From NCBI GenBank assembly GCA_903813345.2, contig CAIIXF020000001.1, forward strand, positions 46,515,885 to 46,579,884: a stretch of DNA of 64,000 bases, in the 5' to 3' direction. Origin of the DNA: Owenia fusiformis. Its lineage: Eukaryota > Annelida > Polychaeta > Sabellida > Oweniidae. This document shows positions 3,790 to 63,696 of this stretch, in pieces (positions within the stretch are counted from its first letter, which is position 1; each line of letters begins with the position of its first letter). Position numbers and translations under genes: made by a program. Below the pieces are notes generated by a model. It was given only the letters and a program-made list of their open reading frames with translations, was not told the origin of the DNA and did not search any database.

Positions 3790-3795
3790 TTTATT
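3790..3795 (-). promoter_or_regulatory. Candidate poly(A) signal of the neuropeptide gene
   Basis: On the minus strand this reads AATAAA, about 75 bases after the TAA stop of the neuropeptide precursor. Distance and sequence suit a canonical polyadenylation signal. A consensus splice donor (AAA then GTAAGTA, GT at 3863-3862) sits six bases after the stop, so some transcripts could instead splice to a distant 3' UTR exon and not use this site. Confidence 0.45.
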
Positions 3796-3869: not shown

Positions 3870-4859
3870 TTAGAGATCGTTTACTGCACCGGACATGTCG
3901 TCTTCATTTGTCATGTCCATGTAATCGATGTCATTGTCTCCATCTCTCTTTCCACCCCATGGCGCAAATGAAGCTCTTTTGCCACCCCAGGGTGCGAACG
4001 ATGCGCGTTTGCCTCCCCACGGGGCGAACGATGCTCGTTTTCCACCCCATGGCGCAAACGCTGCTCTTTTGATATCGTCATCTTCCTCAACGGTGTTATC
4101 TGCACTTCGTTTCCCTCCCCATGGTGCGAATGATGCTCTCTTGCCGCCCCATGGTGCAAAAGCAGCCCGCTTTCCACCCCAAGGCGCGAATGACGCTCTT
4201 TTCTCTTCTTCTAGTTCACTCTCAGAAACATCACTTGTGCGTTTGCCTCCCCACGGAGCAAATGCTGCCCTTTTATCATTTTCGGTTTCACTGTTATCCG
4301 CTCTCTTGCCTCCCCATGGAGCAAACGAAGCTCTTTTGCCACCCCATGGAGCAAACGAAGCTCGTTTTCCACCCCAAGGAGCGAACGAAGCTCGTTTTCC
4401 ACCCCAAGGAGCAAATGAAGCTCGTTTTCCGCCCCAAGGAGCGAATGAAGCTCTTTTCTCTTCGTCTGTCAAAGATTCATCATTCCTTTTGCCACCCCAA
4501 GGAGCAAATGAAGCTCGTTTTCCACCCCAAGGGGCGAATGAAGCTCGTTTTCCACCCCAAGGAGCAAATGAAGCGCGTTTCCCTCCCCATGGCGCAAACG
4601 AAGCACGTTTTCCACCCCACGGTGCAAATGATGCTCTTTTATCGCTATTCTCTTCGATGCTATCCTGATATGAGTCTGATTTCTCTTTGAGATATTCCTC
4701 AATTGTATCTAATTTGTCTTTTAAAGAAGTCCTTTCACTTGCTTTATTGTTTGTATGTTCTTTCGCTATTGCTTTAGTGTCCTTCGCGACCACAGCCGCG
4801 TGTAGCAAAGTCATTACCCAACAAACCAGGAGCATCTCGATCGTGTAACACGACACCAT
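3870..4859 (-). CDS. Multi-copy amidated neuropeptide precursor (FAPWGamide-type, 18 copies)
   Basis: This encodes a secreted prohormone of 329 residues in one coding exon. The first ATG of the open frame (4859) is chosen; the frame continues two codons upstream only through TTG. Residues 1 to about 25 form a hydrophobic signal peptide ending near HAAVVA, followed by a charged Lys/Glu/Ser-rich leader. Then come 18 copies of the decapeptide ASFAPWGGKR (15 copies) or AAFAPWGGKR (3 copies), in blocks of 5, 5, 1, 3 and 4. The blocks are separated by acidic spacers that themselves end in KR, and the protein ends in an acidic tail. Each unit has a dibasic KR site and a Gly amide donor, so the predicted product is ASFAPWG-amide or AAFAPWG-amide, packed in dense-core vesicles and probably acting on a GPCR. 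A splice acceptor (TTTTCAG) lies just 5' of the ATG at 4876-4874. I do not recognise the family: the C-terminus has the residues of molluscan APGWamide in a different order (APWG). Precursor class is near certain; family is unknown. Confidence 0.93.
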   Translation of the reverse strand: MVSCYTIEMLLVCWVMTLLHAAVVAKDTKAIAKEHTNNKASERTSLKDKLDTIEEYLKEKSDSYQDSIEENSDKRASFAPWGGKRASFAPWGGKRASFAPWGGKRASFAPWGGKRASFAPWGGKRNDESLTDEEKRASFAPWGGKRASFAPWGGKRASFAPWGGKRASFAPWGGKRASFAPWGGKRADNSETENDKRAAFAPWGGKRTSDVSESELEEEKRASFAPWGGKRAAFAPWGGKRASFAPWGGKRSADNTVEEDDDIKRAAFAPWGGKRASFAPWGGKRASFAPWGGKRASFAPWGGKRDGDNDIDYMDMTNEDDMSGAVNDL

Positions 4860-4982
4860 CACCAATCTTTAATCTGAAAAGTAAAATGAAATACCTTTAT
4901 TGCAAACAACTCAGAATATTTAGAATGCTTTCTAGTGTTAAAATAAACAACTTATTCTTCGTTGGATACTGCGCGCTCTCAC

Positions 4983-8000: not shown

Positions 8001-8666
8001 CCTAATTCAATTGGAATTAGCCTTATACACTATGCCCCAATTATCACTGTTCACGTGACGTCAAAGTAACAAAATTGATGAATTGGCAGTGTTCGAGTTC
8101 GGTAAGATTTTTTGTTTTCTCGATACCTACTTATAAGTCAAGTTGCAGATCATTATTTGGCTCAAGAGAGTTTACCAAGAATATGTTTTCAAATAAAGCC
8201 GCAATTCCTATTTATTCCTTCGCTTTGTGATTGTGTTACATTGATTAAGTACATTTTCGTCCAAGGAGGATTGGCTCCCAGAGTGCAAGGTCGATATTCT
8301 GTCCCATATATGGACATGTCGTGATTCACAATTCGAATTCAAACAGCCGCCATTTTGTTCACTTCAACATTTGAATCGTGAATTCTGGTCTTATTTCTAA
8401 ACGAAAAATTCCAAAACTCACAACAAAACTATTCGAATCTTGCGACTTAGTGTTATAAAAAAAGGTTGCAGACTTTAGGGTTAAGTCGAGAAAAACAAAA
8501 AATACTCTTACCTAACTCAAACTTAGTAGTTATAGTTAGGGAACAGTGAATAATTAATTTCAATTATTAAGTTCATTGGTCTCTTGAACATCTAATGTAC
8601 ATCGAGATAAAAAAAAGTCCAATAAAGCAGATAACAAATAAAACATTAATTACAATCTAATTTTAA
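5060..8666. other. Gene-free stretch
   Basis: I see no supported gene. Around 6.06-6.32 kb short phrases such as AAATCTTCA and CACCACT recur as a loose degenerate repeat. At 8262 a solo copy of CAAGGAGGATTGG followed by CTCCCAGAGTGCAA matches the terminus of the hAT-like MITE at 29901-30088, so a truncated relative sits there. Near 8.05 kb a TCACTGTTC and near 8.54 kb a GAACAGTGA could be the ends of another small element, but no target duplication is clear. Confidence 0.45.
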
Positions 8667-10552: not shown

Positions 10553-10850
10553 AATGTATTTACGGAGAGAAATGACAACCAATTATATTTCCCAAATGAA
10601 AACCTTCAAATTACTATAGCTGTCAGAAAGGACGGGTTCGTAATTGCATTCAGTCCATAGGCATATGCCATCACACATAAGAGAGTTAACTGACAATTCG
10701 TTGGACGCATTTTAAATCCCAAAACGATGCAATTTGAATGTCAAATTTTGCATTTCGATTTTGCTCAACTACTAGTATACTTCATATGGCACAAACAAAA
10801 ATTTCGAATAAGGTGTCACTTAGAATATTTGCTGGTTTTGTTTATTTGCT

Positions 10851-11670
10851 GTTGCACCACCGCAATTCCTCGGTCCCCGATTAATATGTTTGCACCATTG
10901 CAATGCGCTGGTCCCCAAGTGTTAATGTTGCACAACTGCAATACACTGGTCCCTAAGTAATATGTTTCCAACACTGCAATGCACTGGTCCTCAAGAGTTA
11001 TTGTTGCACCGCTGCAATACACAGGTCCCCAAGAGTTATTGTTACACAACTGCAATACACTGGTCCCCAAGTGTTATTGTTGCACCACTGCAATACACTG
11101 GTCCCCAAGTGTTATTGTTGCACCACTGCAATACACTGGTCCCCAAGTGTTATTGTTGCACCACTGCAATACACTGGTCCCCAAGTGTTATTGTTGCACC
11201 ACTGCAATACACTGGTCCCCAAGTGTTATTGTTGCACCACTGCAATACACTGGTCCCCAAGTGTTATTGTTACACCACTGCAATACACTGGTCCCCAAGT
11301 GTTATTGTTGCACCACTGCAATACACTGGTCCCCAAGTGTTATTGTTACACCACTGCAATAAAACACTTGGGGACCAGTGTAATTGCAGTCGTGCAACAA
11401 TAACCTCTCGAAGACCAGTGTATTGCAATTGTGCAACAATAATGCTTGGGGACCAGTGTATTGCAGTGGTGCAACAATAACATTTGGGACAATTTGTATT
11501 GCAGCGGTGCAACAATAACACTTTGAGACCAGTGTATTGCAGTGGTGCAAGAATATCACTTGGGGACCAGTGTATTGCAGTTGTGCAACAATAACACTCG
11601 GGGACAAGTGCATTACAGTGGTGCAACAATAAAGCTTGGGGACCAGTCTATTGCAGAGGTGCAACAATAA
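10851..11670. repeat. 38-bp minisatellite that inverts at its centre
   Basis: From 10851 to about 11360 a 38-bp unit (TGCAATACACTGGTCCCCAAG then TGTTATTGTTGCACCAC) repeats about 13 to 14 times in one orientation. The central copies (about 11050-11345) are almost identical, the outer ones diverged. At 11361 the array flips: the next 310 bp hold about eight more diverged copies as reverse complement (ACTTGGGGACCAGTGTATTGCAG). There is essentially no spacer at the turn, so the locus is a head-to-head palindrome able to form a long hairpin. Open frames across it are by-products of the periodicity. Confidence 0.92.
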
Positions 11671-11699
11671 CTGTAATATATCACCTCCCAAATCTCACT

Positions 11700-23972: not shown

Positions 23973-24574
23973 TTCATATTGTTAGCTATTATATACATAC
24001 AAGTCTTGTTTTATTATCTATCTAGTAGTAATTTGACAAGTCCTTTTTTCTGCAATGACCGACTTATTTTTCAAGTTCCGTTAACATCCCGGCCCATGGG
24101 ATAACCTTCAGGTATTTTGAAATAACCTAAACAAATTTTTCCTATTTCATTATCTAATATCTACATGCATATATAATATATATATTAAATTGCCGCTAAT
24201 GTTGAAAAACCTTGGCAATTAGTAATTGTAATTGAATGTAAATGCTTATATTAGAAATAAATTGATAACATGAAAACCTTCAACAAAAAAAACAACAAAA
24301 AACCTTTACTGAAAGCAGGTGAGTGCACTCTGATCTGGTCAAAACTACAAATCCATCTAAAATCATGACATCTTGTATCTCCGTCTTCAGCCTTTTGTTG
24401 TTTACATTTAATTAATAAGGTCTCTCTTGGATTGAGCCTTTGGACATCATAGAACTCAAAACCCACAACCATCCATTACGATACAATAACTTCCCTAGAA
24501 ATACAATAGTTAAAAATACTATTAAAATAAGATAATTCTTTTAAAATATTAATAAAAGCGGTACTGTGAGTAAG

Positions 24575-26520
24575 ATTGTTGGCAATTCTGAGAGAAGTGT
24601 AAAACAGATTGCACAATCCAGATTGCAGATTGCACACATTGCAACAATCTGCACATTGCAACATTGCTAACATTGTTAAGATTGTTGTCCATTCTGAGAG
24701 AAGTATAAGACAGATTGCACAATCCAGATTGCAGTTTGCACACATTGCAACAATCTGCACATTGCAAGATTGCTAACATTGTTAAGATTGTTGACCATCC
24801 TGAGGGAAGAAGTATAAAACAGATTGTACAATCCAGATTGCAGTTTGCACACATTGCAACAATTTGCACATTGCAACATTGCTAACATTGTTAAGATTGT
24901 TGACCATTCTGAGGGGAGAAGTATAAAACAGATTGTACAATCTAGATTGCAGTTTGCACACATTGCAACAATCTGCACATTGCAACATTGCTTAGATTGT
25001 TAAGATTGTTTATTGAGATTGTTGGCCATTCTTAATAGTATAAAACAGATTGTACAATCCAGATTGCAGTTTGCACACATTGCAACAATGTGCACATTGC
25101 AACATTGCTAACATTGTTAAGATTGTTGGCCATTCTGAAAGGAAAAGTATAAAACAGATTGCACAATCCAGATTGCAGTTTGCACACACTGCAACAATCT
25201 GCACATTGCAACATTGCTAACATTGTTAAGATTGTTGGCCATTCTTAAAGGAGAAGTATAAAACAGATTGTACAATCCAGATTGCAGTTTGCACACATTG
25301 CAACAATCTGTACATTGCAACATTGCTAACATTGTTAAGATTGTTGACCATTCTGAGGAGAGTAGTATAAAACAGATTGTACAATCCAGATTGCAGTTTG
25401 CACACATTGCAACAATCTGTACATTGCAACATTGCTAACATTGTTAAGATTGTTGGCCATTCTAAGAGAAGTATAAAACAGATTGTACAATCCAGATTGC
25501 AGTTTGCACATATTGCAACAATCTGTACATTGCAACATTGCTAAGATTGTTAAGATTGTTGGCCATTTTGAGACGAGAAGAATAAAACAGATTGCACAAT
25601 CCAGATTGCAGATTGCACACATTGCAACAATCTGCACATTGCAACATTGCTAACATTGTTAAGATTGTTGACCATTCTGAGGGGAGAAGTACAAAACAGA
25701 TTGTACAATCCAGATTGCAGATTGCACACATTGCAACAATCTGCACATTGCAACATTGCTAACATTGTTAAGGTTGTTGGTCATTCTGAGGGGAGAAGTA
25801 CAAAACAGATTGTACAATCCAGATTGCAGATTGCACACATTGCAACAATCTGCACATTGCAACATTGCTAACATTGTTAAGATTGTTGGTCATTCTGAGG
25901 GGAGAAGTATAAAACAGATTGCACAATCTAGATTGCAGATTGCACACTTTGCAACAATCTGCACATTGCAACATTGCTAACATTGTTAAGATTGTTGGTC
26001 ATTCTGAGGGGAGAAGTATAAAACAGATTGCACAATCTAGATTGCAGATTGCACACTTTGCAGCAATCTGCACATTGCAACATTGCTAAGATTGTGAAGA
26101 TTGTTGGCCATTCTGAGAGAAGCATAAAACGGATTGTACAATCCAGATTGCAGTTTGCACACATTGCAACAATGTGCACATTGCAACATTGCTAACATTG
26201 TTAAGATTGTTGGTCATTCTGAAAGGAGAAGTATGAAACAGATTGCACAATCCAGATTGCAGTTTGCGCACATTGCAACAATCTGCACATTGCAACATTG
26301 CTAACATTGTTAAGATTGTTGGTCATTCTGAGAGAAGTATAAAACAGATTGTACAATCCAGATTGCAGATTGCACACATTGCAACAATCTGCACATTGCA
26401 ACATTGCTAACATTGTTAAGAGTTTTGGCCATTCTGAGAGAAGTATAAAACAGATTGTACAATCCAGATTGCAGATTGCACACATTGTAACAATCTGCAC
26501 ATTGTAACATTGAGAGAAAA
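24575..26520. repeat. 109-bp satellite array, about 18 copies
   Basis: Each unit of about 105-110 bp holds, in order: ATTGTTAAGATTGTTGGCCA, TTCTGAGGGGAGAAGTATAA (spacer of variable length), ACAGATTGTACAATCCAGAT, TGCAGTTTGCACACATTGCA and ACAATCTGCACATTGCAACA. About 18 units follow head to tail with few substitutions. Units differ mainly by small length changes in the GAGGGGAGAAG segment. Many minus-strand frames of 60-106 codons spanning it are periodicity artefacts. Within a unit ATTGCA and its complement TGCAAT recur, so the repeat itself is built from smaller inverted pieces. Confidence 0.95.
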
Positions 26521-30088: not shown

Positions 30089-31370
30089 CCCGAGCTTGAG
30101 AAAGCTGTTAAATGCGTTGTCGTAATTTACGGCGGCCATAGTTGGATGTTGGCTATAGCGAATTATATTGTAGCAGAGCACTGTTCTTACACAGAAACCT
30201 ATTGCTTTATGGTAAACTTTGATTTTGTTTTTTTGTTTTTTAACTTTAGTTAAAAATGAATTAATTGCTATTTTCCGCAGAGTACGCGCTTCTAACATAG
30301 AGCATATGAAAGGGAGGAGTGGCTTGTTTCCCGCGGAGGGAGTATACTAAATTTTGCAGTCAGTTCTACACCCGGTTTTGCACAAAAACGTAGAGGATGA
30401 GAAGAAGTCACAGTGACATTGTCTGTTGTACAGTACTCGAATCTCTAGCCAATTACTAATTAGGCTACTTGCACATTCGTGGCCGAAGAAGATAAACCCC
30501 TCCCTCTTAAACTCTGAAGATAATATTAGGGGGTGAAGGGGGGATGTGTATGTTTGGAATTTTTATCAGTCATCGTCATGTAATTTTCAGGATTCAAACA
30601 TGACTGCAGCATACATGTACTTATAAGAAACAAAAAGACCTCGTTCTGCCAACTAACCCAGACAATCGGCGGTTCCAATATATTAGAAGTTACATTCTGA
30701 GTTCTAGAATGCATTGAGGTAGGTTTCTTAAGTGGAAGGGGCGTAGATAAATTTGGAGTAGCCAAATACAGATACCCTATCCCGGGTATCCAATAATGAA
30801 TGTTCTACGTGTATCAATTTATTGCTGTTTTATTTGTCTAAAATCTTGTCTTATGTTGTTGTTATGGGAAGTGCGCATGCGTCATTAATGGCGGATGTTT
30901 TCTTCTCTTACGAAAATTAAATCATAATTACAACGATTACCTGCGCAATTCTAATTTATTCTCGATAAAACCTCCAGATTTTAATAACTTACATACTTAC
31001 TTCTAATAATCAACGACATTTAAATTATAGCAGGACCCCCTTTTGGGGATAAATCAGTTTTAATTTTCGTATTTTTCAAACTTCGGTTTTCGCGGTATTT
31101 TTCATATTTTTGCGCGAATTTTCTTATTTTCAGCTTACGGGTTTTACCTACCTCTTCGTCATGGGTTTCCAAGGATATGGATTGCTCCTTCTCTGCTTTG
31201 TTTTCGCAGTCCAGTCATTTTTCTGTGATCATGGAAACCACTTACCTTCAACAGAGTCATACACACAGTTGATGCAACTGCGACGTTTCCATAAGATTGT
31301 TGGCTCTCGTGGAATCCTTCACAAGAAATCTTCCACACCACTGCTCTTCCTATGTCTTATTCTTAGTGGT

Positions 31371-31394
31371 GACATCCACCCAAACCCAGGTCCT
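31371..31394 (+). other. 2A-like ribosome-skipping motif in the LINE leader
   Basis: The eight codons read DIHPNPGP. The canonical 2A consensus is D-(V/I)-E-x-N-P-G-P, so this copy keeps Asp, Ile and the terminal NPGP but has His for Glu. It follows a leucine-rich hydrophobic stretch, as 2A and 2A-like signals usually do. 2A-like sequences at the N-terminus of APE-type LINE proteins are known from several invertebrates. Skipping would separate a leader of about 77 residues, which also resembles a signal peptide, from the PHD-endonuclease-RT body. Activity with His is uncertain. Confidence 0.75.
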
Positions 31395-32136
31395 GTTAAA
31401 TTTCCCTGCGGTATGTGCCACAAAGCAGTTGCCAAGAATCATCGCGCCCTTGAATGCGATGAATGCGGTACATGGGTACACATCAAATGTGGCAATGTTT
31501 CCCCTGCTGAGTACAATGTTTTTCTTGAAGCGGGCAGTTTCACTTGGATCTGTCCTGGATGTGCTCTACCTAATTTTTCCAACAGCTTCTTCAATGACTC
31601 CACTCTTTCTCATTCCTCGGTAACAAACTCCTTCAGCGCTCTCTCTGATCTTGACAATCTGTCATCATCATCTGATTCTACCGAATCAGAACCACCGAGG
31701 CCGACTGCACGAAAGAGGCGAAACCAGGTTCGCCTCATGTCTATCAACTTCCGCAGTCTAATTAGTCATGAGAAGCAACTACACCTTCAACAACTAATTG
31801 AAACTCACAAGCCAGATGTCATCATAGGCTGTGAGACTCACCTGGACAACACCATCGACAGCAAATGGATATTCGGTCAAGACTACCTTAGCCCACCTCC
31901 ATACAGGAAAGACCGAAAGAAAGGTGCTGGCGGTGTCCTAATCGCAGTCAAAAGTGACTTCATATCAGTCGAATATGAAGCGACAGCTGATTGCGAAATC
32001 ATATGGTCCAAAGCATCTCTATCAAATGGGGACATACTGTTTGGATCCTTCTATCGTCAACCAAACAACGATACTGGTGCTTTGGACTCGCTCCAAACAT
32101 CCCTCGATAAACTTTATGCTAATGGTAATACACATA

Positions 32137-33436
32137 CAGCGGTGGCGGTAGGCATATATTTTTGTGAGTCATCATGACTCAGGTAGTTTCAAAAAAGTGA
32201 GTCACAAGAAAAAAAGTTGAGTCAAAGCTATAAAAGTGTTTTTCTTGAGTAAAAATGCATACAAAATGTAGAAACCACATACAAAATCTATTTTTTGATT
32301 TTGTGCATACCTTTTATTGTACTCTTATAGCACATTAACAACTAACAATTAATTAATTAGGCAATTGCAAGAAAAATGTCACTATTAATCATCTGATTAT
32401 CTGGTCCAGCGAGTCATGGGTGTGAAACTGTGAATGGAGTGGGAGAGGAGTTTCTCCCTGTGTGGAGTTACACAAATTGGGGTCAAAGCGTTTCATGTTG
32501 AAATTCAACATTTTTGCAATCATTCCAAAGTCTAAAACGGCAATATAAGTCCGACCACAATACTGGGCATCATTTAAATTGAATACGGTAGAATCATGTA
32601 ATTATAGCTGATCAAATGAAACCGAAAGTAGATTTGTTTTCATACCTAATTTATCATCATTACCCCCCTTAATGTGCGATCGACTGGATTTTCATGTGCC
32701 CATTATCTATCTTCATAGGATCAGCTTCAGATCTAGTGAATCGAAGATCTTAACTTGAGGGAGTTAATTGAAAATACTTGGTGAAAACTTACGATAGATC
32801 GGTCACTGTGAGCACCATTGATAAACCTACTGCGCATTACATCTGCGCATGCTGATGAGGGGGACGGCTCAAGGAAACTTGCTAACTTAGCGAAGGAATT
32901 TTGCGAACTTGCGAAGGAAACTAAAGGTTCGTAAATCTAGCGTGTGAACATTCAAGGGAAGATTTTATGCGGTAATTTAGATAAATATACGATCACTAAA
33001 ATCCTTAGAAGGGAGTATGAAATTAATAAATTATTGTTCAATGTTATGTTCGTTTTATTGCATTTTTGATACGCCCCCTAGCAACGTGCTTCACGAGATA
33101 AACAAATCGAGGGATCGATCAATGTTTTCAAGTTTATCATTGAATCTGAATCACAGGGCTTTAAAAATTATATGAAATACCGAAATGAGAAAATGATCGG
33201 TAGGAAGGAGGCTCGATTGCGCTGAACGAAATGTTAGATATCCGGAATTAGCAAAATTATAAATTTGATCAATCACGTATTTTCACGTATAGGGATCAAT
33301 TTAACCAAGTACCAAGCGGGGATTTTGCATGTGAAACAAACGTGCGTCAGAAAGACTCGGTAGACAATGAATATTTGCGTCAGAGTTGCAAAAATGTGAG
33401 TAAAAAACGTAAAAAATTGCGTTAACGCCACCTCTG
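32137..33436. mobile_element. 1,300-bp DNA transposon inserted in the LINE endonuclease
   Basis: The termini are inverted: CAGCGGTGGCG on the left against CAGAGGTGGCG on the right (reverse complement). ACATA stands on both sides (32132-32136 and 33437-33441), a 5-bp target duplication. Insert plus duplication is 1,305 bp, a multiple of three, and the LINE reading frame is continuous across the site when it is set aside. The interior is non-coding; GAGTCA / TGACTC phrases recur near the left end. The CAG-GGTGG terminus suits hAT-type elements, some of which make 5-bp duplications, but the assignment is tentative. Confidence 0.88.
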
Positions 33437-36069
33437 ACATATGAAAAACATCTTCCTATGTGGTGACTTCAACTTACCAGACATCGATTGGGAGGATGGA
33501 ACTATAAGGCCTAATTCTCAATATTCTAATGATCTTAATGAGAAGATGATTACAATAACTGATGATCATGGCCTAACCCAATTAGTCAAGGAACCAACTA
33601 GACAAAATAACATCCTTGACTTAGTATTCACTACATGCCCAAACCTCGCAGAAAGAATCTCGGTGGTTCCGGGCATGAGTGATAACGAGGCAGTCCTATG
33701 TGATATAAACCTAAAAATGAAAATTCAGAAAAAGAAGCCTCGTAAGGTCCACATATACAAGCGGGCAGAATGGACTGGACTTAAAGAGACTCTACGATCT
33801 AAGTTCAGCGAATTCAAAGAGAACTGTGAAAGTAGATCAGTTGAAGACAACTGGTCCTCCTTCAAATCTACATTAATATCGTCAATCAATGAGCATATTC
33901 CAAGTAAAACTCTAAGTGGGAAATTCAAAGTACCCTGGATTACCACCAGGATACTGAGAATGATCCGACAGAAACAAAGACGATATAATGTTGCCAAACG
34001 TTCAAATGAACCTCATCATTGGCATAAATACAAATCACTACGGAAATTAATCCATAGTGAAATTCGTAAAGAACATCAGCGCTACATCAACGATCTGCTT
34101 GACATTGATGAAAACGAAATCATAAATGAGAATGTTCAGCACAAAGGCATTACCAAACGCTTCTGGAGCTATATAAAGTCTAAACGCAAAGATGCATCAG
34201 GTATCAGCGTGCTGCGTAACAAAGATGGCGACGAAATAACAGACGCCGCCCAGAAAGCAAACATCCTCAATGACCAATACAATTCTGTATTCACAGATGA
34301 GGATGCCACTCTACCGACAATGGTACCTAGTCAAATTCCTGAAATGCCAAATATCAAAATTTCGACAAAAGGAATTCACAAATTGCTAACTGGCCTAAAT
34401 CCATCAAAAGCCACTGGACCCGATCTTATTCCGACTAGGGTCCTGAAGGAATGCAGTGACAGCATATCACCATTCCTTCAAATAATTTTTCAACAGTCTA
34501 TCGATGAAGGATTAGTGCCTTTGGACTGGAAACATGCCAATGTTACTGCTATCTACAAAAAGGGACGAAGAGATGAGGCTGTGAATTACAGGCCTGTATC
34601 TCTGACGTCAGTTCCATGTAAAATAATGGAACATATTATATTCCATCATGTTATGGCCCACTTTGACCTCTATGAAATTCTAGTAAAATTCCAACATGGA
34701 TTCAGGTCAAAGCACTGATGTGAAACACAACTTGTCAATACAATAGAGAATATAGCTCGGGCCCTCGACAACAATAAACAAACAGACATGTTGGTATTAG
34801 ACTTTTCCAAAGCGTTTGACACGGTGGCTCACGAACGCCTCTTGCTCAAACTCGACTATTATGGAATTCGCAATAATAACTTGAACTGGTTCAGATCCTG
34901 GCTTGTGGGAAGATCACAACAGGTAGTGCTCGATGGTGAATCAAGTTCAAAAACTCCAGTAAAATCAGGAGTTCCTCAAGGAACAGTTCTTGGACCACTC
35001 TGTTTCCTTGTTTATATCAATGATATGGGCAATAACCTATCATCCTCAGCCAGTCTTAAGCTTTTTGCCGACGACAGCCTTTTATTCATGACAGTCGAAA
35101 GCAAGCAAGATGCATTAACACTACAGGAGAATCTTGATAAACTGGTCTCCTGGGCATCAACATGGCAAATGAAATTCCATCCATCAAAATGCTATGTGCT
35201 GAATATTCACAAAGGTAAATCCCCTATCATGCACAATTACACCATGCTAGGGGAAAACCTTAAGTCGGTAACACACATCCCATACCTAGGAATTGACATC
35301 ACAAATAACTTACGCTGGACTACACATATTCAAACTATTGTATCCAAAGCCAATAAGGTGCTTGGATTTCTCAGGCGCAACCTCCATCAATGCCCTGAAA
35401 AAGTGAAGGCTCAGGCGTATAAGTCACTAGTCCGGCCTAATTTAGAGTATGCCAGCTCGGCATGGGATCCATACCGACAAAAAGATATTGATATGTTGGA
35501 ACAGGTACAGAGAAGAGCAGCCAGGTTTGTAACCAAATGTCACTCAAGGGAACCAGGCTGCGTCACCAAAGCTCTTCAAGACCTACAGTGGGAGCCACTG
35601 AAGGAGCGTCGAGAGGCTGCTAGAGTTTTCCTTTTCTACAAAGGAAAGCAGAACCTAGCAGCCATCGACGTGCCTCCATACTTCCGCCAACAGATCAATA
35701 CCAACACTAGGTTGTATCATCCTTCTAAGTTCATACAACCATCAGCTAGAACGGATGTATACAAATTTAGCTATTTCCCTAGGACAATAGCTAAATGGAA
35801 CACTGTACCTGGTGACATCTTAGACTGTGACAGTCTAAGTAGTTTTAAATCATCATACTATGCCTATGTCAATAACTGCAATTAAATAGGTGTGTTTTAA
35901 TATAGATCTATGTTTTAATGTAAAGGGTCCCCAGTGCACAGCAACAAGCCTGCACTACTGGTAAAAGGGGGTGATGTCAACGCGGTTAGCCTGACAGTCT
36001 CCCCAGGTAAAATGAGTTGTAAACCATAGATCTATTTTTAAATGTTAAGGTTTTAAATCATATTCTATT

Positions 36070-55650: not shown

Positions 55651-58600
55651 TGAGATGCACATCCACCAGTTGGTACATATTATACCAATCAGCCTCCTCT
55701 CCATTCACCTCCACATTCTTCATACAGCCCTCAAAGTATTCATTCGACTCAGTTGCCCCCTGAGGCTCAGAGAATACTGCAAAGTTACAAAAATAAATAT
55801 TGTGTTAATGTGTATGAGGATATACAATGTAGAAGAGGTTTCGCTGGACTTCAATGAAACTGGAAAAGCAACAACAACAGGGCATAAAGGTGGTAGGGCA
55901 TAAACACACCAAAGTATGTATTAATTTGACTAAGGAGAGAATACTGCAAAACGACATTAGTCACAGGGTATAAACACATCAAAGTATTCACTGGACTTCA
56001 GAGAGAATACTTCAAAGCAAAAATACTCATTGTGTCAGGGCCCTAACTTAACAATATAACACAAAAATAATTTCATCTGAGATGGGGTCAATCTTAATTC
56101 ACAGACATATTGTTAATAAAAAAGTTTTGGTTAATATGAGCTATACCTGGGTAGCCTCCGAAAAACAGGAGGTCAGAAGTGTCCAATGAAGGAACATCTC
56201 CATTTGTATCCATGGTAACAACTGATTTGCCGTCATCAACTTTGAGCACTAGTCGATCCCCACTGAATTGAGCTATCACTTGGTGCCAACGGCTGTCACA
56301 CAAAGCATATGGTGTCGTCATGTTTGACGTGGCACTGAACTTGCCATTCTTGTTTGTCATGCTGAACATTATCTGCAAATCAATAAAACAAAGGTGTGAA
56401 CGATGAAATGTATGCATGCTATGCACTAATTCAGGAAATTAAACTGATTTGTCATTTTTAGCTTGTAATGTCTAAATTCATGGATTTCCTTCATGCTGAG
56501 TAGAATGACCTAGCTGGACAAAAAGGCTGAACCTGTTACATGTAGGGGCACACCCTGAAGTTGTGCCTTCAGATGAGAATGTAGCTTATTCATAAATAAA
56601 AATACATGAATGACCATTTGCAAGTCCAAATACAATATCCACAATACCACAGTGATATAACATGGCAGAGAATAATTTGATATAACCATCACAATCTATG
56701 ATTAAAACACAGGCCAGGTACATTAACATATATTCTTCATTAACATATATTTTGTGTAAATATTCATAAAGGATTCTCGCTTGAACTTTTTATCTACTTC
56801 AATCATTAACATTAGTTTCCATCTGCTTTTTCATTTAAATTCACTGATTTTATTCTTTCACATTAATGCCCTTTAGTTTGAATTCACTAACCTTTCCATT
56901 GTGTAGACTTAGAGCCAGTGCAGGAGTTCCACTGGGGGAGGATATAGACAGTAGAATTCCATTCTGTTTGTGTGTACGGAATTCAAGCTTGATCATGAAG
57001 TCTGTACCAACATTATAGTTCTCTCCTGCAAAGAGAAAATATGAGTTAAAAAAGCCACATTTGATATATTTAAATACAATTACAGCATTTAAATGTATTT
57101 TAATTCGCATTTGATATTGACAAATGTGATTCAGAACATATTCACCACAACTAGAATGCATTATTTTTTTTATAAAAATTTTTTGCTATTTTAAATCAAG
57201 CAGCCATCTTGAAAATTTGTTCTCCACTTCTCGAGTCTTATTTCTCTCAGACATCAACATACAAAATTTGATACAAAACTGTTGACTGGTATTTGATTTA
57301 TCAAAGATTACATTTTTATGAATAATAGTGGCACTTTCAGCAGACATCTTGAACTTTTCTTCTTAGCAGCTAGAGCTCATTTGTCTCTAAGGCACTAGCA
57401 TATAAAATTTAACTAAATCCATCAACTGGTATTTGAGTTATTGCATGGATGGATGAATGAATGGATGGACAGACAGATAAATGGATGAATGGATGGACAG
57501 CTTTTCTATAACCCTAAAATCAGCTAAACAAGGTAGGCAGAGTATAATGAATACACTTTTGACCAGAGCCTCAATTAAAAAATTTGCCACTTCAATTTAA
57601 TTGATAGGAGACTAAACAAGGTCATTATTTAGAGCTAGAAAATGATCATATACATACTATATATAGCATAGGCATCTCCATTGAAATAGACTCCTTTCTC
57701 TGTGGTCTCATAACAAGATCCTATACCCATGATTGACTTAGAATTGGCTAGATCTATCTTTTCGTCATTCAGCACAAACTTGCGCATACAGCCCTTGAAG
57801 CTCTCAGGTTCCTGTAAAAAAGAAGAATAAAAAAATCAGTAATGCCTCAGTTTAAAAAGTCAATTCTGATTGGTCAAGAATGAACAATAGTGTTGAATGT
57901 TGACTGTGTAATCCAAACATATTCAAATCCTTGAACATGGAAATTATCTTAACTGTCGTCCTCTCATACAAATAATTGTATTTGAGTTATTAATTGTAGT
58001 TTAGGAGGGAGGGGAGGTAATCAAGTCAATCAAAATGTGAGTTAATTTTCATTTTAATGCCCAGAAGTTTTAGCTAAGAGTTACATGGTATTTACACCTA
58101 GTTTGATAAGATTTGATTCTACAAAAAATTCACAATTTAACAATGATATGGAGTTAGGTTGGCTACTAAAAATGGATTTACATCGTCCCTTCATTCTATA
58201 ATGGTTTTGATTAAAGATTGAACATAAATTGTCTACATTCAAAGCATGAAAGCTCCATCTCTGAGCATAACACATCCCCCTGCTGCTTATATGTTTGAAC
58301 TTACCAAACCAGATCTAAGCTCATAAATCTCTGGAAGACCTCCCACATACATGGGCGCTTGAACATCTATCTTCCTAGCAATTTTGTCTTGCTTTTCTGC
58401 ACCATTATCAACTTTTAGTGTCACTATTGTGCGATTTTTCTTCATTACAAGCTGGAATATACAAAGGAACATGTTTTTATGGCGTTATGGTAATTAGCTT
58501 GTTTATAACTATTCAATACATGTATTAGTGTATAAGTGACCACTATTTCAAAATCCCATGCTTTTACTTCAGCAAATGTTTTAATCCATCTGATTTTCCA

Positions 58601-61600
58601 AAAAAAAGATTCTGTTCCCGAAATAGGGGTTTGTTAATTTAAACATTTTAAAATGTCATGGGACAATTTGAAAATTACCTGGTGCCATTTTCCATCATCC
58701 ATGCCTTTCTGACTCGATATAGAGTTAGTCCTGCCTTCCTTGTCACTAAATAACAGAACTATCTGGCCATCAACAATTTGAACAGCAACAAACTCAGACT
58801 GCTCATCATTGGTGACGTAAAATATCAGACCATTCTTGTAGTATGTACGGAACTCAACAGTCACATTGAAACTGAAAGAAACAAGAAAATTGAAAATACT
58901 GTAAAAAACACAAGTATGTAAAATAGATAGAACAAATCTGAAAAATATCTAAGATTGAAATAAAATCAATGATTGTAATTTGTGAATAGGTTATAGTCTT
59001 CTCTTACTGATATTGAAATGAATACATATATTGGAAAATTTCTACATGTTTTTACTGAGGTGTTCCAAGTAGAAAGTCTGACATAATACCAAGACAGGAT
59101 ACAGTTGATTTACATCATTTTATTTCACCCCTAAGGGAAAAGAAAACCCTTGAGGAAAATGAAATCATGCGTATACCATGCACATTTAGCCAATATGGCA
59201 ACTAACCACATAGTATAAAAACTACATAAGTGCTACCATGGCAAATACAAATACGTCACTGACATTACTTAAGGTAGGTAAAGAAGAATGTATAATTGTG
59301 AATAGCTAGGCTGTATACTAATGTCATGCACACAGTTGTCCCACCTTAAGTCCCACTGCAAAAAAGTTAAAATATTTTGCCTGTTCAAGTTCAAACACTA
59401 CTAAGTGTAATATGCATACACAGACATATATTTTTTAGAATACGTTCTACATATTAGGGGAGCCTGTGGCAATAAGGGCTAAAGGGCCAGACACAGGTGC
59501 TGGACCATTGTCTAGCCAGTACACATTGCTAGACATGTAAAAAGCATGTGCACTCCAAAATGCATATAATATTATAACCAGTACACATTGCTAAGTATGT
59601 AAAAAGCATGTGCACTTCATAAATGCATGGAGTATGTATAGTGTTAGTATACATCAATTTAAGTTTGTAACCAGTACACAGTACTAAACATGTAAAAAGC
59701 ATGTGCACTTCAAAAATGCATAGAATAATATGTATGCAATTTAAGTTTATAACCAGTACACAGTACTAATAACCATATTAGAAGCATGTGCCTTCAAAAA
59801 TGCATGGAATATAAGCAATGTAATTTAGTAATAACCAGTAATCTGTACAGAACCTGTAAGAACCATGCATGGAACAAGTATTCAGTACTACCCCATACAA
59901 TTACAGAACACTGCAAATTGTTGCATATCAGAAGTCTTGCACCTAGCCCCAATTTCCTTCCATCCTTGGTCCAAAGACAGAGGTAGAAGGGGGAGGGATA
60001 CTGGGGCTATATACAATACTATTCATGTCAAATTAAAGTGCCATTACAATGATTGCATGCGCTAACATGAGAAATCATTGGGCATTTACAGCATACTTTA
60101 CCTTGATTGAAGAGTTTCTCTAAATTAAATAACACATAAGATGTGTAATGTACTGTATGTTAAACAAACTGTATGATGGAAATAAAATAATTAAAGGTCA
60201 GGTTAGATGAATCATTCTAGGCCAAACTAAATGACATATAAAGGAAATAAAATAAATGATACAAGGCCAGTTTAAATGAATCATTCTAAGAAGTAAGAAG
60301 TCCAAGGCCAGGTTAAATGAATCATAAAACGTTTTGTTCAATTAAATTCCCCAGTGACACTTTTGTAAATAAAAAATAAATAAATAAAAAAGGTTTGGCA
60401 TTCCTCCCACCCGTTCTACACTCTTCCTCATCCTAATCTCAGGATATAAATGAGCTTTGTTTCATTGATTTGATAATCATGAATAATTATTGATAAAGGT
60501 TTCATTTATTTATCCTGGCCTAAAAGAATAACATTAAGTAATGTAGGATAGCAGACCTAAGTTCAATTTGATGCAGCATTGTGGACTTGCCTCATTTTGA
60601 TATTTAAGATTTCTTTAATAACCATGACAATATCATGACATCATGTTTCATTTCGATCAAATTCTACTCACACACAGATGTGTGACGTACACACAGATGT
60701 GTGGCGTACACACAGATGTGTGGCGTAATTGATACCAAGTAGAAATGGGGATAAAGGTATGCAATACTTCAGTTGTCACTATGACATAAAATATAGAGCC
60801 TCCCAAGGTCAGACTATATTTGGAGAACTCAACATATATCTGTGTCATTACTTGAGAATAGGCTTGTAAATTCAGGAAAAACATTTTGTTAGTCTAAAAC
60901 TTACTCTTTTCTGACTTTGGATCTGCGGACATTAATCTGTGCATGGCTGTTCTTTAGACCTAAGGCAACTGCAATGGGATCCACAGTATAGATGCCATCT
61001 TCAACTGGCACAATACATGACCTTGGGGGCTAGAAGTGAAAGATGTACTGTAAGTTAAATTTGCAACACATATGTAAAACAAATGTAATGTGCAATAGAG
61101 CATCTAGGTTTAAAAATACATGTATACTAGATGTAATGTAGTATCTCTGTACTTTTTATGGGAAGTAACACTTTGTTATATCTTAGACAAATCTCTGACT
61201 TATTCCTTGTTAAATGTTGGTCCTCCTTATCCTTGTAACTCATCTTCCTAGAATCCTTAATGTGTCACACACAGGCAGGTCTTGACTCAAGACAGTTAAT
61301 TAAAATAACAATTAAGTTATCAATAATTTGAATTTTTTTAATATTTTTTTTCAAATACACCAATCTCGTTCTTATATTATACATGGTATATTTAGTTCTT
61401 CTATATTACCTCAGTTGCTGGTTGTTCTGTTGTCCTGTCTATGATTGGTAATATAGAGGGTGCAGTGGTCACAGTGACAGGGGCAGCAGTTGTAAGTGTG
61501 GGACCGGTGGGAGCAGGGGCTGGCAAGGTCTCATTGAAGCCATATTCTAAACTCTGACATCTGCCCACATCTGCTTTCTCAAAACTAACTGCGTTCTCCA

Positions 61601-63696
61601 AGTATTTCATCCTAGAAAAAATATGTTTCAGTAAAGTTTATTGGCACTTTTAAAACTTTGTAAGTTCATAATCTCTTCTTCACTATGTTAAGGTAATGAT
61701 TACAACTCCATCTGAATCACACTACAAGTATACAGTATAAAACAAAGGACAATTTGGTTAATTTGACAACATATTCACTTAGATAAGTTAATCTGAGCTT
61801 ATTAACTCACTTTGAATTAATGACAACATCTCGTATACATCCTCTGAAAGGTTGTGCTGTGTCAGGAATCACATTTCCTGCAGGCCAGTCTTGGGGAACT
61901 CCACCTATATATAGACCTTTTTCAGGGTCCCCTGAGATCTTGTTGTCACCTTTCCTTGGGATGAATGCATTGCCGACCCACTGGTCATCTATTATCAGCT
62001 GGATCCTGGAATAAAAATGAGATGTGTGTAATGATAATGTGTGTAACAAAAAATGTGTGCAATAAAAATGTGTGTCATAAAAAATGTTAAAAAAAAGATG
62101 TGTGTAATAAAAATGTTTACATGGGAGGGTTCCAAATGCAGTTTCTCATCCACAAAAAATAATATAAATATGTCATCTATAAAGAACTTTCGCAGAAAGG
62201 AGAAAATCAAATAAAAGTACTTGTTATGTAACAGAAAGAAAAAAAATTGATAGAAAAACTGTGCAACGTTAAAACAAATTAGACTTGCTGATTTTCTCAA
62301 TTCACCTAGCATCAAGCTGTATGAACTAAGATTTATTCAATTCAATTGAATTTTCATTCATACAGAATTACAATTGATGGTAGGTGTCAACATATATGAT
62401 CTTTTACCCATGCATAAATTGGGAGTTGGTCAAGAACTATTCCTTACTGTCTACGTTGCTTCACTACAGACAAAGTGTGTAACTCTCCATCATTATAACG
62501 TTTGCTTGTTCCCATGCCAAACTGGCCTGTTCCTGGGTTAAAGGTTGCCACTGCATAGCCATCCCTAAGTGCTATGTAGAAGTTATCCTGAAAGAAGAGT
62601 ATCTCAGTATGAAATATTGATGATTTGAAGCAACATTACAGTATGTAATATCAAGTTTTTAAAATCCAAATTGGCCAATAACTCCAAATAATTTGGTCAT
62701 CTGGTCATAAAGATGTGTTTCCTTATCACTAGAGTTTGGCTATTGAGCAAAACTGGCCCAGAGCTCTTTTCAATCAGCATGCATTACAAATAACAGAACT
62801 GGTGTATTATTCAATTCTGAGGCTGAATAGACCTGTTACATTGCCTCATATATAGACTCAGCCTCGCCTCAGTCAGAATTATTACTCACCCCCTCTGGTA
62901 CAGGCTTTGAGACCATCAGTATTGTATCTGGTTGGTACGTCTGGAATGTAAGTGATATGGTTGCATCCTTTGGTAAGTCTTCTCCAGGAATCTCAAGGAA
63001 CCCAGTGCCAGGGAATCCAACTACTCTTGATTTCTGAAAAGTAAAATGAAAATTCATGTCAAAGATATATGTATAGAGATAATCAGCTAAATGCTCTTGT
63101 AAAAATCTGGGCGTCATTTGCAGAAATTTCGTAAAGTAAATAAATCATAATCAATTGTTGCAACCATGGATATAAAGAGCATCACAGTTAGAGAACAATG
63201 GACATTACAAATTACGAAGTTTTCTGTTAATGGCCCCCAGAATAACAAATCATTGACTTCTGATATCCACAATTATTTTTGATGTATGAGTAACAATCAG
63301 ATTTTCTTAAATTATTTTGTTTTTATGTTTAGCTATTCTTCCAGCAATTTTGGACTGTGATTGCTTTTGATTAGGGAAGTGATGTGTTTAGCTACAATTT
63401 TTTGAGACTTCAAGACATTAATTGAGATGCTGGGAAATTGATTCCATATGACTGGTTATCCTCTGAAATATTCCTTTCTATACACGCTTTTCAATATTTT
63501 TACCTTTACCATCAAGACATTTGTGCTTTTACATATTTTCTGTGAATAATGTGATAACTTATATATACTTACATCTCTACAGCCAGACTGCATGCCTATG
63601 TACTTGCCGTTGAGTAGATTGAGAGCAGTCAATCCCCTAGAGGTCACTGATATATCCCTCATACACCCAAGGAAACTCATCGCTGTCACATTGAAT
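55631..63696 (-). CDS. Laminin alpha chain, C-terminal LG2-LG5 part (12 exons, 5' end outside the window)
   Basis: Exons in transcript order: 63696-63573, 63033-62890, 62587-62447, 62005-61811, 61611-61410, 61029-60905, 58871-58679, 58451-58305, 57811-57658, 57025-56893, 56372-56147, 55776-55631. All have GT-AG borders; the phases close to 642 residues plus TAA. The piece starts in LG2 (LGCMRD ... SGCRD), continues through LG3 (LYIGGVP, RGCIRD ... GRC), a Thr/Pro/Ala-rich linker, LG4 (RTYYKNGLIFYV, MYVGGLP, KGCMRK ... GSC) and LG5 (RTHKQNGILLSIS, LFFGGYP, EGCMKN ... SSC) and ends CPIR. Each LG domain closes with the usual Cys pair. The LG1-3/linker/LG4-5 order is diagnostic of laminin alpha. 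The protein is secreted, trimerises with beta and gamma chains and binds integrins, dystroglycan and heparan sulfate through LG domains. The alpha1/2 or alpha3/5 class was not resolved by sequence. Introns are 0.24-2.0 kb. Confidence 0.94.
59515..59850. repeat. Degenerate minisatellite in a laminin intron
   Basis: Five diverged copies of a 60-110-bp unit share AACCAGTACACA, then ACATGTAAAAAGCATGTGCA and CTTCAAAAATGCATGGAATA. It lies in the long intron between the exons at 60905 and 58871. ACATGTAAAAAGCATGT is itself a near-palindrome. Confidence 0.75.
60190..60330. repeat. Triple repeat around AGGCCAGGTTAAATGAATCAT
   Basis: Three copies of a unit of about 55 bp, with the shared core GGTTAAATGAATCAT, follow each other in the same laminin intron. 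No function is apparent. Confidence 0.6.
60664..60727. repeat. Three tandem copies of a 21-bp palindromic unit
   Basis: ACACACAGATGTGTGGCGT repeats three times, each containing the self-complementary-like ACACAGATGTGT. It lies in a laminin intron about 180 bp from the exon at 60905. Confidence 0.75.
62025..62125. repeat. ATGTGTGTAATAAAA-type degenerate repeat
   Basis: About six loose copies of ATGTGTGTAA-TAAAA alternate with A runs, starting about 20 bp inside the intron beyond the exon ending at 62005. It is a simple intronic repeat with no visible role. Confidence 0.6.

Follow-up and report, generated by a model that had tools for sequence, protein, structure and literature searches.

The locus considered here lies on the minus strand of a 64,000-nucleotide stretch of the Owenia fusiformis genome (this whole stretch is referred to below as the window), where a single open exon runs from an ATG at 4859 to a stop codon at 3872-3870 and encodes a putative leucokinin (kinin) precursor. 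Its parts, together with the signals that flank it, are as follows.

4874-4886, minus strand: splice-acceptor-like sequence TTTTACTTTTCAG, upstream of the ATG and of an in-frame TAA, by sequence
3870-4859, minus strand: predicted leucokinin (kinin) precursor coding exon, 329 amino acids plus stop, from the open frame, the 18 repeats and silent-site divergence
4785-4859, minus strand: putative signal peptide, approximately residues 1-25, by hydropathy only
4485-4634, minus strand: block 1, five ASFAPWGGKR units, by sequence
4302-4451, minus strand: block 2, five ASFAPWGGKR units, by sequence
4239-4268, minus strand: lone AAFAPWGGKR unit amid acidic spacers, by sequence
4107-4196, minus strand: three-unit block (AS, AA, AS), by sequence
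3945-4064, minus strand: final four-unit block (AA, AS, AS, AS), by sequence
3790-3795, minus strand: AATAAA polyadenylation-signal-like hexamer, whose start lies 77 bases past the stop codon, counted from the codon's first base

The preliminary description of this stretch reported 18 FAPWG units at 3870-4859, and all of them were found, on the minus strand. The N-terminus of the precursor, MVSCYTIEMLLVCWVMTLLHAAVVA-KDTK, is hydrophobic (peak Kyte-Doolittle mean of 2.35 over 15 residues, a measure of hydropathy only) and is followed by a charged leader that ends in KR. The units themselves are ten residues long and of the form xxFAPWGGKR, with 15 reading ASFAPWGGKR and three AAFAPWGGKR, and they are arranged in successive blocks of 5, 5, 1, 3 and 4 that are set apart by four acidic spacers (NDESLTDEE, ADNSETEND, TSDVSESELEEE and SADNTVEEDDDI), each closing with KR. 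The C-terminal 24 residues, which follow the last unit, make up an acidic tail. KR flanks 18/18 units on both sides, which is the arrangement of a secreted precursor with dibasic-bounded paracopies, secretion being judged here by hydropathy. With these KR-bounded units, their Gly donors and the KR-ended spacers, the sequence supports the earlier reading of the gene, in which a single precursor carries many copies of an amidated neuropeptide.

An in-frame TAA is present at 4871-4869, upstream of the precursor ATG, and the splice-acceptor-like TTTTACTTTTCAG suggests that the gene has a 5' untranslated exon. Over the 4.1 kb upstream of the precursor, a narrow pattern returned one donor-like sequence, at 8513, which we do not claim as the 5' exon. 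A scan for bacterial promoters and terminators, which does not apply to animals, gave results at chance level only.

The window contains several other features. On the plus strand, pieces of a non-LTR retroelement occupy separate open frames at 31053-35882, and these comprise a PHD-finger with a weak endonuclease-like region, an endonuclease-reverse transcriptase, and RVT_1 (88 bits). On the minus strand, between 56097 and 62145, Laminin-G exons exceed the Pfam cut-off at 56097-56438, 58637-58948 and 61810-62145, with a weak Laminin-G stretch at 56853-57185; it is possible that these exons belong to one large laminin- or neurexin-like gene. A minisatellite at 24571-26512 repeats a 109-base unit about 18 times, with 92% matches, and a 38-base tandem array at 10850-11671 keeps one orientation to about 11361, its consensus being reversed in orientation after about 11355. 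Elsewhere in the assembly, PF16915, the erythrocruorin-linker family of annelids, was matched three times in a cluster at C6:27033687-27048438, each time over the cut-off and once with an internal stop, and an LDL-receptor-A-like stretch was recognized by eye at locus L028. The linker matches point to a likely annelid source. COX1 gave no match in the assembly, and the mitochondrial genome is therefore either outside it or was missed.

The DNA of the repeat units is considerably more varied than the peptide that it encodes. There are 17 distinct DNA versions among the 18 units, with a pS of 0.71 against a pN of 0.020 (pN/pS 0.029), and within the 10-codon unit variation is found at nine of the ten third positions, two of the ten first positions and none of the second. 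Because the versions differ almost only at silent sites, the peptide is judged to be under purifying selection; conservation is seen in the peptide and not in the DNA, so that a recent DNA amplification is not by itself a sufficient account of why the units are so uniform. FAPWGGKR was absent from all 2000 residue shuffles of the precursor, and given this result, the 17 DNA versions and the silent-site bias, a chance origin of the repeat array is excluded. The locus could also be imagined as a non-coding minisatellite with an open frame by chance, and Tandem Repeats Finder does give a 30-base period at this position, with further long frames, of up to 246 amino acids, over the same stretch. 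However, the unit differences are nearly all silent in the precursor frame, a codon pattern that opposes such an origin, and the same frame opens with a signal-like stretch and contains acidic, KR-terminated spacers that are themselves non-repetitive. We consider the likelihood of a minisatellite of this kind to be negligible.

From the repeat array, the selection on its peptide, the kinin core and a receptor orthologue encoded by this genome, all of them read from sequence, we take the locus very probably to encode a leucokinin (kinin) preprohormone, in all likelihood that of an annelid. Leucokinins terminate in FXSWG-amide or FXPWG-amide in insects and elsewhere in FX1X2WX3-amide, where X3 is S, A or G; the insect form FX1X2WG-amide has H, N, S, A or Y at X1 and S, P, A or R at X2 (PMC7913504). 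The predicted mature ASFAPWG-amide contains the kinin core FX1X2WG-amide, and FAPWG is followed by G-KR in 18/18 units, with the F, the W and the Gly amide donor each invariant throughout. The same FAPWG-amide C-terminus is found in Rmkinin7 of the tick Rhipicephalus and Ixkinin17 of Ixodes (PMC6692460), as well as in the Homarus lobster leucokinin NTFAPWGa (PMC4696782), and a literature text search for FAPWG-amide strings returned only these two papers, each represented here by excerpts; a wider motif search listed seven, of which five concern kinins, one the neuropeptides of lobsters and one an unrelated subject. From these excerpts we tabulated 48 peptides, one partial lobster peptide being left out; FxxW[GSA] fits 48/48 and the FAPWG ending occurs in three. 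The peptide had at first been called unfamiliar, but it shares its core with published tick and lobster kinins, in a genome that also encodes a predicted orthologue of the leucokinin receptor (LKR), and so is matched by a named family, the kinins (leucokinins).

Peptides of the APGWamide / GWamide family end in GW-amide. The preliminary description had raised the possibility of a rearranged relative of APGWamide, and both do contain A, P, G and W; a derivation from molluscan APGWamide or annelid GWamide is nonetheless highly improbable, given that the amide donor is preceded by WG in 18/18 units and by GW in 0/18, while the kinin consensus is satisfied at every fixed position, Phe included. 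The Pfam Kinin model PF08260, which spans 8 positions, gave no match to the precursor and a single weak match in the genome, on C2, below the cut-off. In a control, Ixodes kinin strings were likewise unmatched and a lobster string scored 10.6 bits against the cut-off of 19.7, and since published kinins also miss the cut-off, this model has little power to decide membership.

In their layout, too, the units resemble those of kinin precursors described elsewhere. Multi-copy leucokinin precursors are usual, the largest being that of Aplysia with about 30 amidated paracopies; its total of about 60 peptides includes many that are not leucokinins (PMC7913504). The precursors of the ticks Ixodes scapularis and Rhipicephalus microplus also carry many paracopies (19 and 17 listed, respectively), mostly FxPWG-amide, and that of Ixodes includes four DTFGPWGGKR repeats laid out as are the units here; the paracopies listed for R. 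microplus are all different and those of Ixodes of several kinds, whereas the present precursor has just two isoforms, 15 and 3 (PMC6692460). Of the Homarus americanus peptides, ASFNPWGa is one substitution and NTFAPWGa, by inspection, two substitutions from ASFAPWG-amide, although 7/13 of those listed have a WA-amide ending, unlike the units here (PMC4696782). The leucokinin-like peptides of Aplysia have a common FXXWX-amide motif, and at the Aplysia receptor, ALKR, the F, the W and amidation are each essential and IP1 is raised without added G protein (PMC9562341). Annelid leucokinins, probably from the same phylum as ours, have already been reported from Capitella teleta, Malacoceros fuliginosus and Urechis unicinctus, and the Urechis precursor is described as having eight paracopies (PMC7913504). 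The excerpted account of the wider distribution reports the leucokinin system to be absent from phoronids and brachiopods and present in nemerteans (PMC8557429). A literature text search found no publication linking Owenia with leucokinin. The precursor clearly adds another example to a hormone family with recorded members in insects, ticks, molluscs and further worms, and does not represent an unknown kind.

We searched the assembly (498 Mb in 525 contigs) for exact matches to a DNA pattern encoding FxxWGGK followed by CG or AG. The pattern gave 19 matches, 18 of which are the precursor units, against seven for a reversed control pattern; it covers endings in WG, as distinct from WS and WA. 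The 19th match is a single one, on C5, and in this genome-wide pattern search the precursor locus is the sole place with more than one. Two of the weaker protein matches were considered as kinin-like genes and rejected: L006 consists of tandem repeats whose frames are KEGGNFVYDS-like, and L005 has, under our filter, no frame of at least 45 residues with a G-dibasic site.

A candidate receptor was found on contig C9. Drosophila LKR, the single LKR used, served as query and human NK1R as a further row of the receptor tree, both as unverified sequences. The Drosophila LKR core gave 109 genome matches at E values up to 1e-10, of which 20 were made into loci. Against TM1-5 of this receptor, to which 19 of the 20 loci gave a match, locus L010 on C9 scored 175 bits, ahead of 130 for the next one. 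L010 has FQFQAALLQ-W-LP--MC in common with Drosophila LKR, and its best solved relative by phmmer is the substance-P receptor (116 bits). A TM6-7 query gave 55 genome matches, two of which share the contig and strand of L010 and are located downstream of it:

C9:25086700-25086822, same strand as L010: TM6/TM7 piece, 51% identity
C9:25089565-25089675, same strand as L010: TM6/TM7 piece, 62% identity, the highest listed, over a short stretch

No TM6/7 exons of L010 were seen within 30 kb downstream of its exon 1; they are located about 64 kb away. The resulting model spans TM1-7 in three exons, with all borders AG/GT and the frame preserved, and the C-terminal part of the receptor lies outside it. 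This spliced TM1-7 carries WLAMSNSC-NPFIYG and is 46.6% identical to the unverified Drosophila LKR sequence (129/277 aligned, score 669), ahead of L007 (score 513) and L008 (score 492, with the next highest identity, 41.7%). In a receptor tree of 22 rows (20 from the genome, fly LKR and human NK1R), L010 pairs with Drosophila LKR at 100/98 support, while 9/19 inner branches are open and the deep forks are without resolution; the row for L020 is in a wrong frame, has a very long branch and carries no information. On sequence grounds, the genome that holds the precursor also encodes this predicted leucokinin-receptor orthologue on C9.

L007 was also considered as the leucokinin receptor and rejected; it has the best unspliced LKR score yet stands elsewhere in the tree. 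It scores 205.5 bits with the prolactin-releasing-peptide receptor (phmmer) and 205 with LKR (blastp), a rough comparison as the programs differ, and its best solved relatives are PrRP, NPY and tachykinin receptors. L007 (C5:11344400-11345257) and L009 (C5:29389360-29390217) are closely similar peptide receptors separated by 18 Mb, and their tree end branches are so short (0.08 and 0.1) as to suggest a fairly recent duplication.

The receptor also bears on whether the peptide could be a convergent one, amidated and unrelated to leucokinins, whose FxPWG-amide end arose by chance and which acts upon a different receptor. A five-residue core can arise twice, and the kinin comparison made here is one of peptides and not of whole precursors. 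The presence of a leucokinin-receptor orthologue in the same genome argues against convergence, as does the confinement of nearly all FxxWGGK(R) matches to the precursor among the WG endings searched, and we regard convergence as very unlikely.

If the gene is indeed a leucokinin preprohormone, its mode of action may be sketched from that of the family. The precursor would enter the secretory pathway and be cut at KR by a prohormone convertase, after which trimming would remove the basic residues and each unit would have its final Gly converted to a C-terminal amide, for a predicted yield per precursor molecule of 15 ASFAPWG-amide and three AAFAPWG-amide. The copper monooxygenase domain PF01082 is matched 25 times in the genome, with no single match marked out as the amidating enzyme. 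Upon release from neurons or neurosecretory cells, the peptides would be expected to activate the leucokinin receptor on C9, probably via Gq. In insects and ticks, leucokinins have roles in gut muscle, water balance and feeding (PMC7913504, PMC9562341).

The idea of a new peptide at this locus was a false lead, and no new peptide family is needed. According to the excerpted text of a 2021 review, no study localising leucokinin to cells was known in annelids (PMC7913504). The predicted ligand gene and TM1-7 receptor model described here, from one, most likely annelid, genome, constitute a testable pair. It is tempting, if only tentatively, to view the peptide and the C9 receptor as a candidate leucokinin ligand-receptor pair in an oweniid, the sister group of other annelids, in which an arthropod-like FxPWG-amide core has been retained within a near-uniform array of 18 copies. 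Under this proposal, which we hold to be possible rather than probable, FxPWG-amide may be ancestral in protostomes, and selection in this lineage may have favored dose over diversity of isoforms.
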